A stretch of 64,000 bases of DNA from Allacma fusca (Eukaryota > Arthropoda > Collembola > Symphypleona > Sminthuridae), in contig OX359245.1 in assembly GCA_947179485.1 (NCBI GenBank), forward strand, positions 60,809,067 through 60,873,066, read 5' to 3'. Made by a program: the position numbers and the translations under genes. Shown here piece after piece: positions 42,174-50,259 of this stretch. Within the stretch, counting starts at the first letter, position 1, and each line of letters starts with the position of its first letter. The notes below the pieces were generated by a model. The model ran no database searches. It saw only the letters and a program-made list of their open reading frames with translations, and was not told the origin of the DNA.

Positions 42174-42768
42174 GAGAGAACCAGTGATGCTCACACTACT
42201 CTACTTTTCCGTAGTGGTAGTGGAATAGTGGTAAAGTGTAGAGTATTTCCAATGATTACGTATATTAAGTAGTTATTGGTAGAGTAGGACCGCACTGAGA
42301 TAGTTTCTGCTAGGAGTAGTGGTAGGTAGAGGTAGCTGGTTGCTGTACTTATTAAAATAGCACATTGTAGTTCCGTCAAATTATTGCAGTGGCAATAGAG
42401 TAGAGGTAGAGGTATAGGCATCAGTATTTCATACATAAGTAGTGCTAACGTAGTAACCATTACTTCCTCAAGTGAAAGAGTGAAACGCACCAGTTATGTA
42501 ATATTAAATGTTATGCCTAAGCGTAAGCGTGCGTAAGTAATCATATTGGCGCCCCCGGATTCAATCTGTTCTGATTCAGTCTTGTCTACCAGCATCACCG
42601 GAATTTATTAGAATTTCACCCATCGAAATTCATCCGTAAAAATAAACTGATAGTATAGTACCTTTGCTGTGTTCAACGCATTAAGTTATTAGGTATCGTT
42701 TGGAATTTCCGTTTATTAGTGTCAGTTCAGAAACTTATTTCCATAGTTGGAAGCTAGAAGCTATCGAT

Positions 42769-44396
42769 ATGGACAAAAGGTGTAAGAAAGTGGCAACGGA
42801 CTGTTCGGTGCCAAATATAACAGTTGAACTCAGCTCAAACCAAATGGTATTGCTGAACAAATCCAAAAACCAACGGACAATGAAGGACATTCTCGAAATT
42901 CAGGGTATTTATGGACGATCCAAAGAAAGTTTGATCAGCCGAAGCCGGGAATTAAAGAGAAAAATTCAGAAAACCAATTTGAAAGGTAGATTACGAATTC
43001 TCGCTTTCATAATAAAATTTTGAAGTTAGTATACAAGAGTATTGAATAAGAAAAGCTACCCTGGCTTATACAGCAAGTAAATATAAAATATTTATTCCCC
43101 CTAGAATTTGCTCCAGAAGCTAAGGATTGCTATTTCAAGGTGCTACAAACTTTGGGATGGAAAGTTTACTGGGAACAACTTTCCATTGACCAGAAAGTTG
43201 ACGATTGTAGCTTCAATTATGTCGATTCAAACGTTTCGTATTGGAAGATGCATGAAGACCTTAAGACCGAACCCGTCATAGCTGTAGACCTTGAAGGGAA
43301 TGAATGGAGCTCTTACAGTGGATGTATTTGCCTTGTGCAAATCAGTACCAGAAAAAATAATTATCTCATTGACGCATTGGCAGTTCCTCAAGAAATATGC
43401 GACAATTTGAAGGAGGTTTTGGAAGACAAACGAATTTTGAAAGTAATGCATGGAGCAGCCAATGACATTAAGTGGCTCCAGCGAGATTTCGACATCTATA
43501 TATGTCCCCTGGTTGATACTCAGTTTGTTGATCTTAAATTGGGACCGGACTATCCGGATCCTCAAGGAGCTCCACCAGGCTTTTCAACTTTAGTAAACAA
43601 GCTACTCCATATCAAAATCTCAACTGCTGAAGACGTTCTGGGACAGCTATCTGATTACTCAGCTCGGCCGCTTCATCAGGACCTACAAAAATTTGCATGT
43701 AATGACACCAGACTTTTATTGCATTGTTTTGTTGCGCTGACAAGCAGCTCAACAAATTTTAAGCTTGTGTTGGAAAAGTCTGCGTTGTTGTGCAAGCGGT
43801 CAGTATGGATAAGTGAAAAGTATCCTACAGTGCACGAAGAGATGCCTGAACCAATGCCTCACAAAGTAGAAGTGCGTTTTAAAGCCCTTCACGAATTTCG
43901 AGAAACGCAGTCGAAACTTCAAGATAGGAAGCCACAAGATCTTATTCCAACACCTGTGCTCAAGACCATTGCCTTCGGGAAACGATGCTCTCCATTACGG
44001 CAGTTCCGAATGGAGCGTGATTTGAGTTCAGTTGCCAACCGTCGTGTCCCAAAGGTCAAATTTCTCGGAGTTTGTTTCAGGTGAGCTGTTTTGGTTAGCA
44101 TGTGATCGTCTTTGGCAATGATGTTGCTCTTGAATGATATTGCTTACTTTTGTACGTTTTCCCACAGATGCCGTAAGTACCATGGAGATGTTGCTGCTCA
44201 TTGCCTTGCAGAAAAAGCTCCAAAATGTGCCGCAGAAAAAGAATTTTATAATATGAATCCCACGGAGCTTCCAAAACTCGAAGCCGAGAAACAGAGGATC
44301 AAGTTAAAGCGAAGCAAACGTCGAATAGCTGCAGCGCTGGTCAGATATTCGAAGGATGGAGAAAGGTCTCGGACTGTCCGAGATCTTTCTTATTAA
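42769..44396 (+). CDS. Rrp6/EXOSC10-like 3'-5' exonuclease-domain protein, Exo III Tyr changed to Phe
   Basis: Three exons, 42769-42985, 43105-44080 and 44168-44396, encode 473 aa. The RNase D/Rrp6-type DEDD exonuclease domain covers about residues 125-290: Exo I VIAVDLEGN (Asp134, Glu136), then LVQISTR, Exo II MHGAANDIKWLQRDF (Asp193), and Exo III KFACND (Asp273). In DEDD-Y enzymes the residue four before that Asp is a catalytic Tyr; here it is Phe269. Rrp6 acts in nuclear RNA 3'-end processing and decay with the exosome. This protein is about half the length of EXOSC10, and I see neither an HRDC domain nor the N-terminal PMC2NT domain. The C-terminus has a zinc-knuckle-like CFRCRKYHGDVAAHC formed across intron 2, then a basic tail (KRSKRR). 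It lies within the hAT element and is intact. Confidence 0.82.
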
Positions 44397-44910
44397 TATC
44401 GAGGTGTTCAGTGGTGCGAGATGTAAGTAAGAAGGCATATTTAAATGTCTTTGTGAAAATTGTTGTCATTTTTATTATTTTCTCGTTAAATTGTGCAGGT
44501 TCCTATTACTGACATCGAGGACTGGAACTGCTCAACAGGTTAACGAGTTGTGTTACGAAGATGACGAAACTGGTCACTCTGGATGATGTTATTTATGCTA
44601 TAGTTGGAAGACCATTCTTCCCATTAAACTGTTTATTAATTAGATTACTAGCCCTTTGCTAAATGTTCTACGAGACTGCTAGTAACTACTTGCTCCTAAT
44701 CGCAGGTGGTAAAGCCAACTCCAGGCTCTTACAAATATTCAGTAACACTGTCGAATGTACCGAAAGATCCGGAGAGAAGAGCTCCGGGTAGATCAGAAGT
44801 GTCGAGGATTGGATTCAAGATCGGAAAGATCGAAGCAGGGGAAACATACGAAACATGACTCTTATTTTAGTACCATATAATGTCTATTTTTTCTCGCAAT
44901 GAATAATAAA
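44397..44910 (+). other. Possible extra 3' exons or 3' UTR of the exonuclease gene
   Basis: Just after the stop codon a strong donor (GTAAGTAAG at 44422) and acceptors before 44501 and 44706 delimit two exon-like blocks. Read in the frame of the exonuclease they stay open to a TGA at about 44856 and give KPTPGSYKYSVTLSNVPK and SRIGFKIGKIEAGE-like text. The in-frame TAA at 44394-44396 separates them. They could be a spliced 3' UTR, an alternative C-terminus through an unseen donor, or a short separate reading frame whose ATG is formed across the intron. AATAAA lies at 44905-44910. Confidence 0.4.
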
Positions 44911-45220
44911 CATTCATGTTCACTGGATAAAACTAATTTTAAATTTCAAAATTAAATAAGCTGTTTTAACAAGAGGAAGCAAAGAATTTCTTTAAGGTTT
45001 CAGTATATCTACAGTAATTTCTCATTGAAAGGTTTGTAACTAATTTAGTCTTTTTTGAAAAGAAAATTTATAAGGAATCTTCCCGACACTACATAATGCT
45101 GTTGTTACTATGATGCAATTGGTTGAAGAAGAATTTATATCTGTATATCTTTATACACGTGAGTGTATTACAATTGTATAATTCAACTACACAAATATTC
45201 CTTACGAGCAATGTTGGCAG

Positions 45221-47127
45221 TCGTGCTCCTCATTGGTACAGGTTTTACCTGGGTAATTAGTTACAAGTTTGGGTACAGGTGTATGTGGTACAAACATTTT
45301 GAACCCATTCGGTTTGGGTACAGGTTCAATCGTTAAATATGGGTACAGGTACAAAAATAAAATCTCCGGGTTTAACCTAACAAGTGCAGGTACGCAATGT
45401 GCAATTAAATGTACCTGAACCTGTTGGTACTTCCCAATAAGTAGTAAATTTGAAGTAACTATACAGATTATAGTGCAGTTACCAGTGCTGCGGACAAGTT
45501 AAAGTAATACTTGAGTTTTCAAGTCAAGTTCGGGTCAAGTTCAAGTAGGCCAAGTTTTTTACTTGAATCATTCGGGTCAAGTTCATGTACGTACCCGGCT
45601 TGACCATGACATTCTAAGACAAGTCAGGTTCAAGTGCAAGTATGACAAATTTACTTGAACCCCAAGTCAAGTTCAGGGTCAAGTAATGGAAAGAAAAAAC
45701 TTGAACATGAACTTGAGATTTCATGGTCAAGTTCAAGTAATTTTAGATTGCGCATGCCATTAAGGACGGAAGAAATTTCGAAATCACAATCCAATTTCTT
45801 GTCATGTTCAGGATATTTTGTTTGTGCATGTTATAAATCAAAGAACAAAATTCAAAACCAGAGTTAGTTTTCTATAGGTTTTGTTTAACTGACGTTGTTA
45901 GTTGTAGTAACCTCTCCATGAAATGAAAGAATTATCTTGATAATTCGTATTATTACTTGGAATTATTAGTTTCAACTTCGGTAAATTATTTTCAATAAAA
46001 AATGAGCTTGGATTGTCCATTACAAAAAGCATCTAATAAACAAGTAAATACTAGTTTCTTTATTAAATATTAAGTTAAAAATACATACTGGGAATGCTCA
46101 AATAGGTATATGCATACACATATATATGAACATTAAATAAAACTTGACACAATATAATACTCGTATATACAGTGAATTTCCATTACAAGAGATCAGCTTA
46201 TAAGGAATGTATCGATATGCTGGATGAATTTGTATGACCTCAACTTTCATTTACTCAGACGTTTCTTGTAAGGGAAATTTCTTGACAAATTGTACTGTCC
46301 TTTATACCTAACGTTTACTGTATTCAGTATACGCTAAAGGATGTCCTCGAATGGTTTGAAATAAAAAATGGTATTAAAATTGTTTTCTGAATGCGTTTTG
46401 GTTTTCAGTCCGACGGAAATAATTTGCAGATGTATGCTAAAAACATTTGTGGACACATTTTATTTCTTGTGATACTTAACTTGAATTATCAAGTTCAAGT
46501 CACGTTCAAGTCATGGTCAAGTCAAGTTTGGATCTGTAACTACTTGATCAAGTTCGGGTCTTAGAAAATTTACTTGATAACTTGAACTTGACAAGTCAAG
46601 TAATTACATGAACGCGAGTTATCAAGTTCAGGTTGTGTCTTGAAAATTACTTGAAGATTCATGGTCAAGTCAAGTTCATGGTCAAGTTTTTAAATTACCT
46701 GACCCGATCGCAGCACTGACAGTAACTGTTCCCAACTAAATTCCACATTGTAAAAGCGCATTTAAATTATACCTACTGCTATGTAGTACTTGATGTTGGC
46801 AACGCATATCACAGAAAAATTCTTTTTTTACTCATTTCAGCCGTGCAAAACATTTAGGAATTCTGCAAATTCTCGTGTTCACTTTCTGAAGAAATAATAA
46901 CTAATACCAATAATAATTCCAGCAACTTTATTTTAATCGGCTATTGGTATGGTTGGTGATTATTTTATTCAATCAAATCGTTTCTACAACATATATGTAG
47001 TAGAGGTAGTACAGGTGCTGGTATCCCCGATTTATTTTTATGTACAGGTACGGGTGCAGGTACAAAAAATCCAAGTACCCATGATTCAGGTCCGGGTACA
47101 ACATTTTTGTACCCATGCGGAGCAATA
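45221..47127. mobile_element. Non-autonomous element nested in the hAT transposon (GGTACAGGTAC word)
   Basis: Flanked by an exact 8-bp duplication GTTGGCAG at 45213-45220 and 47128-47135. The termini are imperfect inverted repeats: TCGTGCTCCTCATTGGTACA on the left against TATTGCTCCGCATGGGTACA on the right. The outer 200 bp each side are built of GGGTACAGGTAC words. It is interrupted by a second element at 45483-46718. Confidence 0.8.
45483..46718. mobile_element. Non-autonomous hAT element nested inside the nested element (CAAGTTCAAG word)
   Basis: Termini CAGTGCTGCG and CGCAGCACTG. The flanks GCAGTTAC (left) and ACAGTAAC (right) agree at 6 of 8 positions, a decayed target duplication. The left 250 bp and right 250 bp are made of TCAAGTTCAAGT/GGTCAAGT words. 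It is the same family as the copy at 62956-63995. Confidence 0.75.
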
Positions 47128-47340
47128 GTTGGCAGCAGTCATTATTAGGTCTAATAGCACTAGTAAAAATGGAACAAGCATGCCATCTAGTCGGTTTTAT
47201 TACAATCGTGTTAATGAACTCACACAAGCAGGATCAGAATCTCGTCATTGCGTACAACCTCGTTTATTTGTGGTTAAGATTAAGGATCACGTCAGCAACC
47301 CCTAATTAATTTCTTAAGCACATTCTAAACTATCTTCAGA

Positions 47341-49763
47341 ATGGAAGACTTAAATGAAAATGGAACTGGACAGTCCAGTTCCAGAACGTCCGTAAGCAAA
47401 CGACGCAAAATTAATTATGCTACTAAACAGGATTCACTTGCTGAGCATGACGAAACTTTGGATTTCGACGAAGCAGGTGTACAGACACGGAAGGAAGTTG
47501 AGTTCCATTGTCCGAAATTCAAACTTCCAGATTATTTAAAGAATCATTTCATTTACTGTAATTCCGTTTACCCTGAAGGTTGTAAAGAAAAGGTTACAAA
47601 CGTGCTAAAATGCATTCACTGTCAAAAGTTGCTGCGTGCTCCTTGCCACAACTTCTCAAATTTCAAAAAACATCTACAGGTACTTCTCTCAATTTAATAT
47701 TCTCGAATCAAGATCACCTGTGGTTTGCAGTTGCCAAAACTAAAAGAAGATATTCCTACATTATTATTTCAGAATAAACATCCTGACGTTAAGGAAATCG
47801 GTAATGAAAACCTTTCCCAAAACTCTATTAAGAACTACTTCACTTCAACTGCCAACAAAATTCACTCGAGCGACCCTAGGCAACTTCGATTTGATGATGC
47901 TGTTGCAAAAATGGTGGCCGTAGATGGACTTCCGCTAAATGTTACATCTGGAATTGGATTCAAGAATCTAGTACAGACACTAAGTCCTGGAATTACGGTA
48001 AAGTCCCGACACACAGTACGCCGCAAAATCCAGAAAGAAGCTGCTACGGTTAGAAAAAGAAATTCTGAAATTGATATGAGCGCATTGTCCTCGCAGCGTA
48101 TACATGGCATAGCTGATATTTGGTCCACAAAATTGCAGCAATCAGTATTGGGTATTCGTATTCAATACATTACTGATGATTTCAAGTTAGTAAACAAAAC
48201 TGTTTCATTTGTGTCCTTTGATGAGAGTCACACAGGTCCAAATATTAGGGCAAAAGTAACATCGGTTCTAAGAAGCAGCGGGATGACACCGAAACAATTT
48301 GGTGTGATTGTTTCGGATCGTGCTAAAAATATGCTAAACGCGTTTAATGCTGATGTTTTTTTTGACGAATCTTGGGAGGAGGTACAACCTGGTGAAAATG
48401 CAAGCGGATCCGGACAGTCCGGTTCCGATGTGGTGACTGATGAAGAAGATTTCGATGTTGTTGAGAATCGAGGCGCATCTGAGGACGATGATAACAGCAT
48501 TATTGCAGATTCTACTGCAAGTAATACTAATAGCTCTTGCAGACCTGACGATGATGTAAGTTATGGTTGGGATCACCATGGCTGCCTTGCACATCTATTG
48601 CAATTAGTTATAAATGATGCCATAAAATCAGATGCATCAGTGAAGGATGTCATTAGGATAGTTAATGATATAATAGTTTTCTTTCGGCGATCACCAAAAT
48701 GGACTGCCAAACTAGTGAAGAAAACGAGCAAAAACGTACTATCAATTGGACAGACTCGATGGAATTCGATTTACACCGCTTTTGAGCGCATTAGTGACGT
48801 AAGTTATTTTTAATGATTTGAGTTGAACTGTGGCAAATTGTTTAATCGTACTGTTACCAAACTTTAAGTATATTTTTGCCGCAGGATACAATGTTCCCCC
48901 ATATTGTGGATGTCCTGCAAGATTATAACTTGGGCGCAGCAAAAAATAAGAAGCAAATTAAAATTCCCAACGATGCCGACCGAAACAAAATAAAGGAGAT
49001 ACAGATGATTCTCACTCCTTTTAAGTCGGTTACGGACATATTTCAAAGCAATGCAGTAACTTCCTCCGTGATAATTCCTATGTTGCTTGATCTCCAGAGC
49101 AAGCTTTTGAAAATTCCTTGCATCTACTTCCACTCGTTTCGGGACACACTTCTACAAAATTTGGACTCGGAGAATCGATTCAAGGACGTCGTTAAGCAAG
49201 AAAAAATTGTTATATCAAATATATTGGATCCAAGATATAAACTTCGCATGTTTGGGCCCAAAATTAGCCAGCGGTACTTTACAACGCCACTTAAAAATGA
49301 AGCGCGAAAGGTTATTGAAGATGCTTTCACACAATTGAGGTTGTCCGGACAGTCCGGACTTGAAAGTAATCGAGCAAAAACAACTTCCCAGCCTTCAGGT
49401 CGAGCATTTGACTTCCTTCTGGATGAAGATTTAAGCAACGAGCTTGAGTCAGAATTGGAGACATATTTAAAGGAACCACCGCAGAATCCAATTTCTGTGG
49501 ATCATGCCGCTGGAGGAAACGAAGTCCTAAATTTTTGGAAAGAAAACCAACATCGATTTCCCATTTTAGCAAGTATGGCAAAGATTTATTTGGCTATTCC
49601 AGCGAGTTCAGGAGACGTGGAACGCTTGTTCTCTATTGCCGGAACTTTAAAAAGACAGCATCGCAACCGCATCGATATAAAGCTGATTGAAGATATGCTA
49701 ATTATACGAGAGTATCATCGTCCAGCCTTATGGGAAAAATTCAACAAGCCTCCCCTTCTCTAA
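47341..49763 (+). CDS. hAT-superfamily transposase, intact
   Basis: Three exons, 47341-47679, 47731-48798 and 48885-49763 (introns 51 and 86 bp), encode 761 aa without a stop. It cuts and pastes the surrounding element. A BED-type zinc finger lies near residues 91-112 (CIHCQKLLRAPCHNFSNFKKHL). The RNase-H-like core keeps Asp242 (HGIADIWST), Asp309 (IVSDRAKNM) and Glu715 (SSGDVERLFS), the expected D-D-E triad. The middle has WDHHGCLAHLLQLV and TRWNSI, and the C-terminus is the hAT dimerisation domain ending KRQHRNRIDIKLIEDMLIIR. An acidic, Ser-rich insert (about residues 325-385) sits before the WDHHGC motif. AATAAA overlaps the stop (49762-49767). All parts needed for activity seem present; expression unknown. 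Confidence 0.93.
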
Positions 49764-50259
49764 TAAATAGTACTAGTACTTGCATAACCAGTTTTAGAGT
49801 AGCACCGGACAGACCGGTGGTAATTGGCTGTTTTGACATATGCAGGGCTGCTCGGTTTGTTAGCAAATGCTGGTAATAAAATAATTTCTGTGGCATTTTG
49901 TAATCTGAATTGGATGGAAAGGTACTACATTTTTAGTGTTAATTTTGTATGATTCTAACGTTTTATTAAAAATTACTTTTAAAATTCCAACATTTTGCGT
50001 TAGCCAAGTGTAGAGTAGTGGGTGGCGAATATAATTTTTTTAGAGTAGTGTTTCAGTAGTGGTTAGGTAGGCGCCAACAAAAGTACTGGTAGTGGTAGTG
50101 GGTAGTGTTTTGTGTAAATATAAATGTGTTGTAATTAGAGGTAGTGGTTTACACTGTCACATTTGAATTTTGTAGTAGTAACGGCAGGTGTAACTGGCAC
50201 ATTTCTACATAGCGTATTTTAGAGTAGTGGGAATTCGAATGAGCATCACTGGAGAGAAC

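Follow-up and report, generated by a model that had tools for sequence, protein, structure and literature searches.

Does a DNA transposon of the springtail Allacma fusca own an RNA exonuclease gene that lies next to its transposase gene, and what might such a gene do for its carrier? The question is raised by a 64,000-nucleotide stretch of the A. fusca genome (contig OX359245.1, positions 60,809,067 to 60,873,066, forward strand; hereafter the window, numbered from its first letter), in which a single hAT element at 42182-50251 (8,070 bp) was found to encode two proteins on the same strand, a hAT transposase and an Rrp6-like 3'-5' exonuclease, the latter in four exons. The element looks autonomous; beside its transposase gene it holds a probable accessory gene, for a 3'-5' exoribonuclease that derives from Rrp6 and has gained a zinc knuckle. 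This exonuclease belongs to a family that is carried by several unrelated mobile elements of A. fusca.

Architecture of the window element

The element, its target-site duplications (TSDs), its terminal inverted repeats (TIRs) and its two genes comprise the following features, each given with the evidence used to place it:

42174-42181, no strand: left TSD GAGAGAAC (sequence)
42182-42193, + strand: left 12-bp TIR CAGTGATGCTCA (sequence and left-end copies)
42769-42985, + strand: exonuclease exon 1 (GT-AG introns, public protein P0001)
43105-44080, + strand: exonuclease exon 2, with PF01612, a part matching the Rrp6 HRDC region by fold, and a motif-III Tyr to Phe replacement (Pfam, fold, alignment)
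44168-44365, + strand: exonuclease exon 3, with a variant zinc knuckle CX2CX3HX6C and a basic tail (sequence)
44499-44586, + strand: exonuclease exon 4 with stop codon (sequence)
44905-44910, + strand: AATAAA, which may serve the exonuclease gene as poly(A) signal (by eye)
47341-47679, + strand: transposase exon 1 (open frame; splice site by eye)
47773-48798, + strand: transposase exon 2 (open frame, frame checked; splice sites by eye)
48885-49763, + strand: transposase exon 3 with the hAT dimerisation domain PF05699 (open frame and Pfam)
50240-50251, - strand: right 12-bp TIR, inverse of CAGTGATGCTCA (sequence)
50252-50259, no strand: right TSD GAGAGAAC (sequence)

The TIRs at both ends are identical over 12 bp and are flanked by a perfect 8-bp TSD, so that the window element displays the short TIRs and 8-bp TSD by which the hAT superfamily is recognised. 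Moreover, when 42174-42600 was used as a left-end query against the genome (392.7 Mb in 91 contigs), at least 43 matches were obtained; 40 of the 180 candidates were scored, and the window itself is among the matches. The left edge at 42182 is more than a chance feature, because 40 of these 43 matches begin at query positions 1 to 9 (position 9 being 42182), that is, at or up to eight bases before it. The earlier note on this DNA, made from the sequence alone, had proposed a single hAT unit with these termini, and the identical ends, the GAGAGAAC copies on both flanks and the recurrent left edge bear it out.

The transposase was read as a protein of ~747 aa in three exons, with open frames in all three pieces. 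Its last exon encodes the C-terminal dimerisation domain PF05699 (E 1.9e-17, Pfam), and the first two pieces yielded no profile match at E 0.001. The exonuclease comprises 492 aa from four exons, all introns being GT-AG, and P0001, a partial A. fusca protein of 447 aa from the public databases, spans the same three exon junctions. PF01612 was detected in it with E 3.6e-30 (Pfam), and Rrp6 was its best match by both sequence and predicted fold (mean pLDDT 74); most of the model can be aligned with Rrp6 structures that span the catalytic and HRDC regions. With PF05699, PF01612 and four GT-AG exons inside the TIRs, the co-occurrence of a transposase and a complete, intron-bearing Rrp6-like gene was likewise substantiated.

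All four acids of the DEDD set are present in the window exonuclease. The motif-III Tyr of DEDDy exonucleases is presumably a catalytic residue, a role that fits the title of PDB entry 3sah ('Y436A mutation in the catalytic site'). It is replaced by Phe (codon 43692-43694) in the window protein, in P0001 and in a further public protein, P0002, and is retained in the remaining 30 rows of the 33-row alignment. This replacement is absent from the earlier note, and it qualifies the description of the gene as 'intact', which stands for the open reading frame, whereas enzymatic activity may be less than full.

Copies, derivatives and movement of the composite

A second full-size copy was identified at G000:C1:22252535-22264741, with the same TIRs and its own perfect TSD, GGTAGAAT, and with flanks whose similarity to those of the window copy does not exceed chance words. 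Its aligned parts are 97.9-100% identical to the window, and these include two nested elements that sit between the exonuclease and transposase genes. The second copy lacks element positions 383-604 and 1210-2590 (counted from 42174), which represent most of the exonuclease gene; it keeps exonuclease remnants, its transposase frame is broken, and it carries inserts of ~850 bp (resembling a LINE fragment by eye) and ~4.9 kb. Given a second copy with its own TSD, unrelated flanks, the same nested elements and exonuclease remnants, the composite moved as a unit, and it did so after the nested elements had arrived.

Both nested elements, which were picked out by eye because of their inverted ends and duplicated target sites, are an addition to the earlier note:

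45221-47127, no strand: non-autonomous hAT-like element, with TSD GTTGGCAG at 45213-45220 and 47128-47135
45483-46718, no strand: second element, inside the first, with TIR CAGTGCTGCG and flanks GCAGTTAC/ACAGTAAC (6 of 8 positions alike)

They contain repeated GGTACAGGT and TCAAGT motifs and predate the split of the two full copies. Separately, a 14-bp palindrome, TCCGGACAGTCCGG, occurs with variants at 43544, 47365, 48409, 49344 and 49804 of the window, four of the five sites lying in exonuclease or transposase coding sequence; these may represent putative binding sites.

Twenty places matched by the left end were fetched, comprising the second full copy and 19 short copies. Fourteen of the 19 join position 861 (in exonuclease intron 1) to ~7546 (in the transposase tail), sharing one deletion breakpoint and retaining exonuclease exon 1 wholly or in part, while the other five join ~534 to ~7818. 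The left arms of the 14-copy group are 4-10% diverged from the window; since these derivatives hold exon 1, that part of the exonuclease gene was in the element before the group arose. A script that chose the TIR pair with the fewest TSD mismatches returned perfect 8-bp TSDs at the element edges in 12 of the 19 short copies. The remaining copies showed a mismatch at one position (L027), at two (L014, L019) or at five (L017, L025), no TIR pair (L022), or a perfect pair at a 561-bp span that may belong to another element (L016). An assembly artefact at the element edges is unlikely, given perfect TSDs at the same termini in these 12 copies.

These copies also decide whether an ordinary host Rrp6 gene was accidentally bracketed by hAT ends. 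The introns of the gene are the only point that speaks for such an arrangement, and Pfam detected no PMC2NT domain at E 1 in the 492-aa protein. The second composite insertion with its own TSD, together with the short derivatives bearing exon 1, rules this explanation out and leaves its probability close to nil. The refuting condition named in the earlier note, that other copies of the family never carry the exonuclease, does not hold, as one further composite insertion with part of the gene and 14 exon-1 derivatives were found.

A third composite copy is likely to exist in another A. fusca assembly, where window-like proteins for the exonuclease (P0002, 92%) and the transposase (P0005, 93%) are both listed with a 6,818-bp longest contig and probably derive from one contig. 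Matches at 92-93% were not found in the present genome among the exonuclease matches or the transposase matches listed. The recent insertion suggested for the window element is plausible, in view of its perfect TSD and a second copy ~98-100% identical to it. On all of these structural points taken together, our confidence is very high.

Exonuclease genes beside other mobile elements

To place the gene in its genomic context, the exon-2 protein was searched against the genome, and all 76 of 76 candidates were scored. In total, 40 exonuclease matches were obtained, two of them from the window family (95-100% identity) and 38 with 22-46% identity. Transposase and pol candidates were scored in part, so that the counts of linked matches given below are lower bounds. 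The transposase query returned at least 122 matches (134 of 249 candidates scored), and for at least 12 of the 40 exonuclease matches one of these is no more than 6 kb away, compared with 0.15 expected under uniform placement. As copies within a family are not independent, the number of families matters more than this fraction, and four hAT families were read with an exonuclease: hAT1 (the window family), hAT2, hAT3 and hAT4.

hAT2 is represented by L033, L035 and L036, which are 98.9-99.5% alike, and was delimited in L033 and L039 as a 6,884-bp element with TIR CACTGCTGCCC and perfect TSD CCCAGATA. hAT3 (L037, public protein P0019) and hAT4 (L041) are known here from their genes. The exonuclease and transposase genes are convergent in hAT2, hAT3 and hAT4. 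Two further observations concern single loci: a 158-bp stretch of the hAT2 left end is tandemly duplicated in the L036 copy (L036 1998-2155), and the hAT3 exonuclease (L037 2772-4448, P0019) bears two extra C-terminal CCCH zinc fingers.

Exonuclease genes were also encountered beside elements of other classes, for which the evidence from L031 to L034 consists of open reading frame (ORF) lists and Pfam matches. L031 and L032 have 6,324 bp in common at 99.8% identity, their left flanks being different, and there the exonuclease lies beside a CACTA-like protein. This label is uncertain; it comes from reading of the protein and from a match to DUF4218 that falls short of the curated threshold (E 0.0033); the right end of this repeat was not found within 2 kb beyond. 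Between its two genes, a 67-bp near-perfect palindrome was noted (L031 5734-5800). At L034, a pol piece with RVT_1, RNase H and integrase domains lies just upstream of an exonuclease-like ORF. The Gypsy-like class rests on such pol pieces, and the query derived from L034 (90 of 2,071 candidates scored) gave at least 92 matches, at least five of which, L034 included, are 100% identical. A Gypsy-like pol match was located no more than 6 kb from at least 11 of the 40 exonuclease matches, where 0.11 would be expected, and all 11 are situated downstream of pol on the same strand, as judged by coordinates. The ORF found downstream of pol at L034 3820-5457 (G000:C8) and at further loci has a zinc knuckle, and the same 546-aa frame is kept at five loci. 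Altogether, at least 25 of the 40 matches were linked to mobile elements (12 hAT, 11 Gypsy-like and two CACTA-like), the other 15, L038 included, being without an assigned element.

An exonuclease domain followed by a C-terminal zinc knuckle is common to the seven proteins read here. The knuckle has the form CX2CX4HX4C in hAT2, hAT3, hAT4, L031, L038 and the Gypsy ORF, with the variant spacing in the window, and it is absent from the six Rrp6 rows examined. All six proteins read from the hAT families, the CACTA-like repeat and L038 have kept the DEDD acids, and five of these six also have the Tyr. For HRDC, the Pfam match of hAT4 exceeds the cut-off (E 4.6e-8), those of hAT2 and L038 narrowly miss it, and that of the Gypsy ORF is weak (0.005). 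Furthermore, hAT2, L031, L038 and hAT4 share two introns at like places, one in phase 1 near an SYxG motif and the other in phase 0 after the exonuclease domain; the second intron of hAT4 can also be read as phase 2, and hAT3 allows the same two phases, though its sites are less certain. Both introns are absent from the window gene. In a phylogenetic tree that included hAT4 and left out the Gypsy row, seven proteins (six from this genome, L038 among them, and the metagenomic P0003) formed a clade apart from nine Rrp6 rows with support of 99/98, and the window protein paired with P0003 (99/99). With the Gypsy row in and hAT4 out, the clade was recovered at 85/97 and the Gypsy branch was very long. 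A relative of P0003 was also sought in viral contigs, where 18 stretches fitted a pattern and none encodes one.

Several observations weigh against a single, functional accessory family. The tree has long branches, for which the program warns of false joining, and includes no springtail Rrp6 row, and for these reasons a clade apart from Rrp6 is likely, not proven, on the aligned sequences. Shared architecture is incomplete, as Pfam HRDC was not found in the L031, hAT3 or window proteins (no hit at E 1 in the last), and as P0003, sister of the window protein in the tree, has no knuckle. A stop codon lies within four of the 40 exonuclease matches, the catalytic Tyr is replaced in the window copy, and the Gypsy ORF, read as lacking all four DEDD acids, is a pseudoenzyme, so that catalysis is not always what is kept. 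A dN/dS comparison between the hAT2 exonucleases of L033 and L035 gave no synonymous and two non-synonymous codon differences, too few to be of use. Finally, the closest transposase relative among the matches listed lies at C8:15515772 (58%); the 5 kb read there, which includes 2.1 kb upstream of the transposase, contains no match to the exonuclease, and none was placed near it by the genome-wide exon-2 search. A hAT element can therefore move without the gene, as would be expected of an accessory but also of a passenger.

Possible roles and known systems

The earlier note had left open whether the exonuclease is a passenger or a helper. As a passenger, an Rrp6-like host gene would have been captured once or several times and would be carried along while giving the elements nothing. 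Transposons are known to capture genes, and the second copy, with most of its exonuclease gene deleted, and the closest hAT relative without one in the 5 kb read are both consistent with it. Conversely, proteins that keep the DEDD acids were met repeatedly, in the four hAT families read and next to elements of other classes, several of them have like intron sites and phases, and exon 1 is older than the derivatives whose left arms are 4-10% diverged. That one type of gene turns up in all of these hAT families, in a CACTA-like repeat and in Gypsy-like elements favours a helper, and the passenger is retained as the lesser of the two, unlikely but still to be reckoned with. Such recurrence in unrelated elements suggests that the exonuclease helps them to survive, and our preference, by a modest degree, is for a shared accessory gene that acts on RNA to the benefit of the element.

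An Rrp6-like exonuclease with an added zinc knuckle would be expected to act on RNA. Made together with the transposase, it would work on RNA for the benefit of the element. Its most likely substrates would be small RNAs directed against the element, or the precursors of these, which it would trim or degrade; alternatively, nuclear RNA surveillance may be kept off element transcripts. Small-RNA counter-defence in particular is a serious candidate to which we would give somewhat less than even credence. We consider it more tentative still that one anti-silencing RNase module, derived from Rrp6 and fitted with a zinc knuckle, has been exchanged between the hAT, CACTA-like and Gypsy-like elements of one genome.

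The Tyr to Phe copy in the window may be slow, or may act largely by RNA binding. The presumably weakened catalysis of this copy and the loss seen in the Gypsy ORF may leave room for a decoy mode, in which the proteins would bind RNA or exosome partners and thereby block host Rrp6- or Nibbler-type processing instead of cutting. The Phe of the window protein, P0001 and P0002, the added knuckle, and a 546-aa Gypsy frame kept at five loci without the four acids are all compatible with decoys. Set against them are the six hAT, CACTA-like and L038 proteins with intact DEDD acids, five of which have the Tyr, and we regard a decoy role as distinctly improbable.

The nearest precedent found for a module of this kind is the exonuclease domain inside Dada transposases. 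Dada transposons of Laccaria bicolor and Ectocarpus siliculosus were described with a DEDDy 3'-5' exonuclease domain inside the transposase, for which trimming of 3' DNA ends in transposition was proposed (PMC3706591). By that precedent, the A. fusca exonuclease would process DNA ends. Its nearest relatives are nevertheless Rrp6 RNA exonucleases, and the closest hAT relative has no such gene in the 5 kb read. The gene also occurs in Gypsy-like elements, which mobilise by another route, and its presence in both DNA-moving and RNA-moving elements argues for a shared target, such as RNA-based silencing or nuclear RNA surveillance, and against DNA end processing, which we consider highly improbable.

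The Dada and window elements are alike as DNA transposons that encode a DEDDy 3'-5' exonuclease. They differ in that the Dada exonuclease is a domain of a transposase of another superfamily, whereas here it is a separate gene with a zinc knuckle, beside the hAT transposase of the window and in other elements. Insertion into small RNA genes is a further mark of Dada. Most autonomous ISL2EU candidates are reported to have an ORF with a YqaJ exonuclease domain (PMC4482050). ISL2EU and the window element both have a second gene for an exonuclease beside the transposase, and they belong to different superfamilies. YqaJ is an exonuclease family unrelated to that of the window. Classical hAT elements (Ac, Hermes, Tol2) share with the window element the TIRs, the 8-bp TSD and the dimerisation domain, and to our knowledge they encode a transposase alone.

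Among cellular proteins, Rrp6/EXOSC10 (PDB 5c0y, 2hbj, 4nlb, 3saf) gave the best sequence and structure matches, from which the window protein differs by the lack of Pfam PMC2NT and HRDC hits, the added zinc knuckle, the mobile location and the Tyr to Phe replacement. Nibbler/Mut-7 proteins have the same exonuclease fold, with weaker matches than Rrp6. They are exonucleases of small-RNA pathways, and the small-RNA link made here is an analogy. No report of an Rrp6-like gene in hAT or Gypsy elements was found in the open-access literature searched, a scope outside which most subscription journals lie. Passages of PMC3985635 deal with PF01612 in one section and with hAT transposases in another.

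The A. fusca elements present a case of one accessory gene associated with several transposon superfamilies, which makes testable the questions of which RNAs the exonuclease acts on and whether its presence raises element copy number. The way in which eukaryotic transposons escape RNA-based silencing is mostly regarded as passive. If unrelated elements of one animal, some of the cut-and-paste and others of the copy-and-paste type, share a dedicated RNA exonuclease, that enzyme would be a candidate for active counter-defence, and a module exchanged in this manner would resemble the shared anti-defence genes of phages, forming here a counter-defence pool common to unrelated selfish elements.

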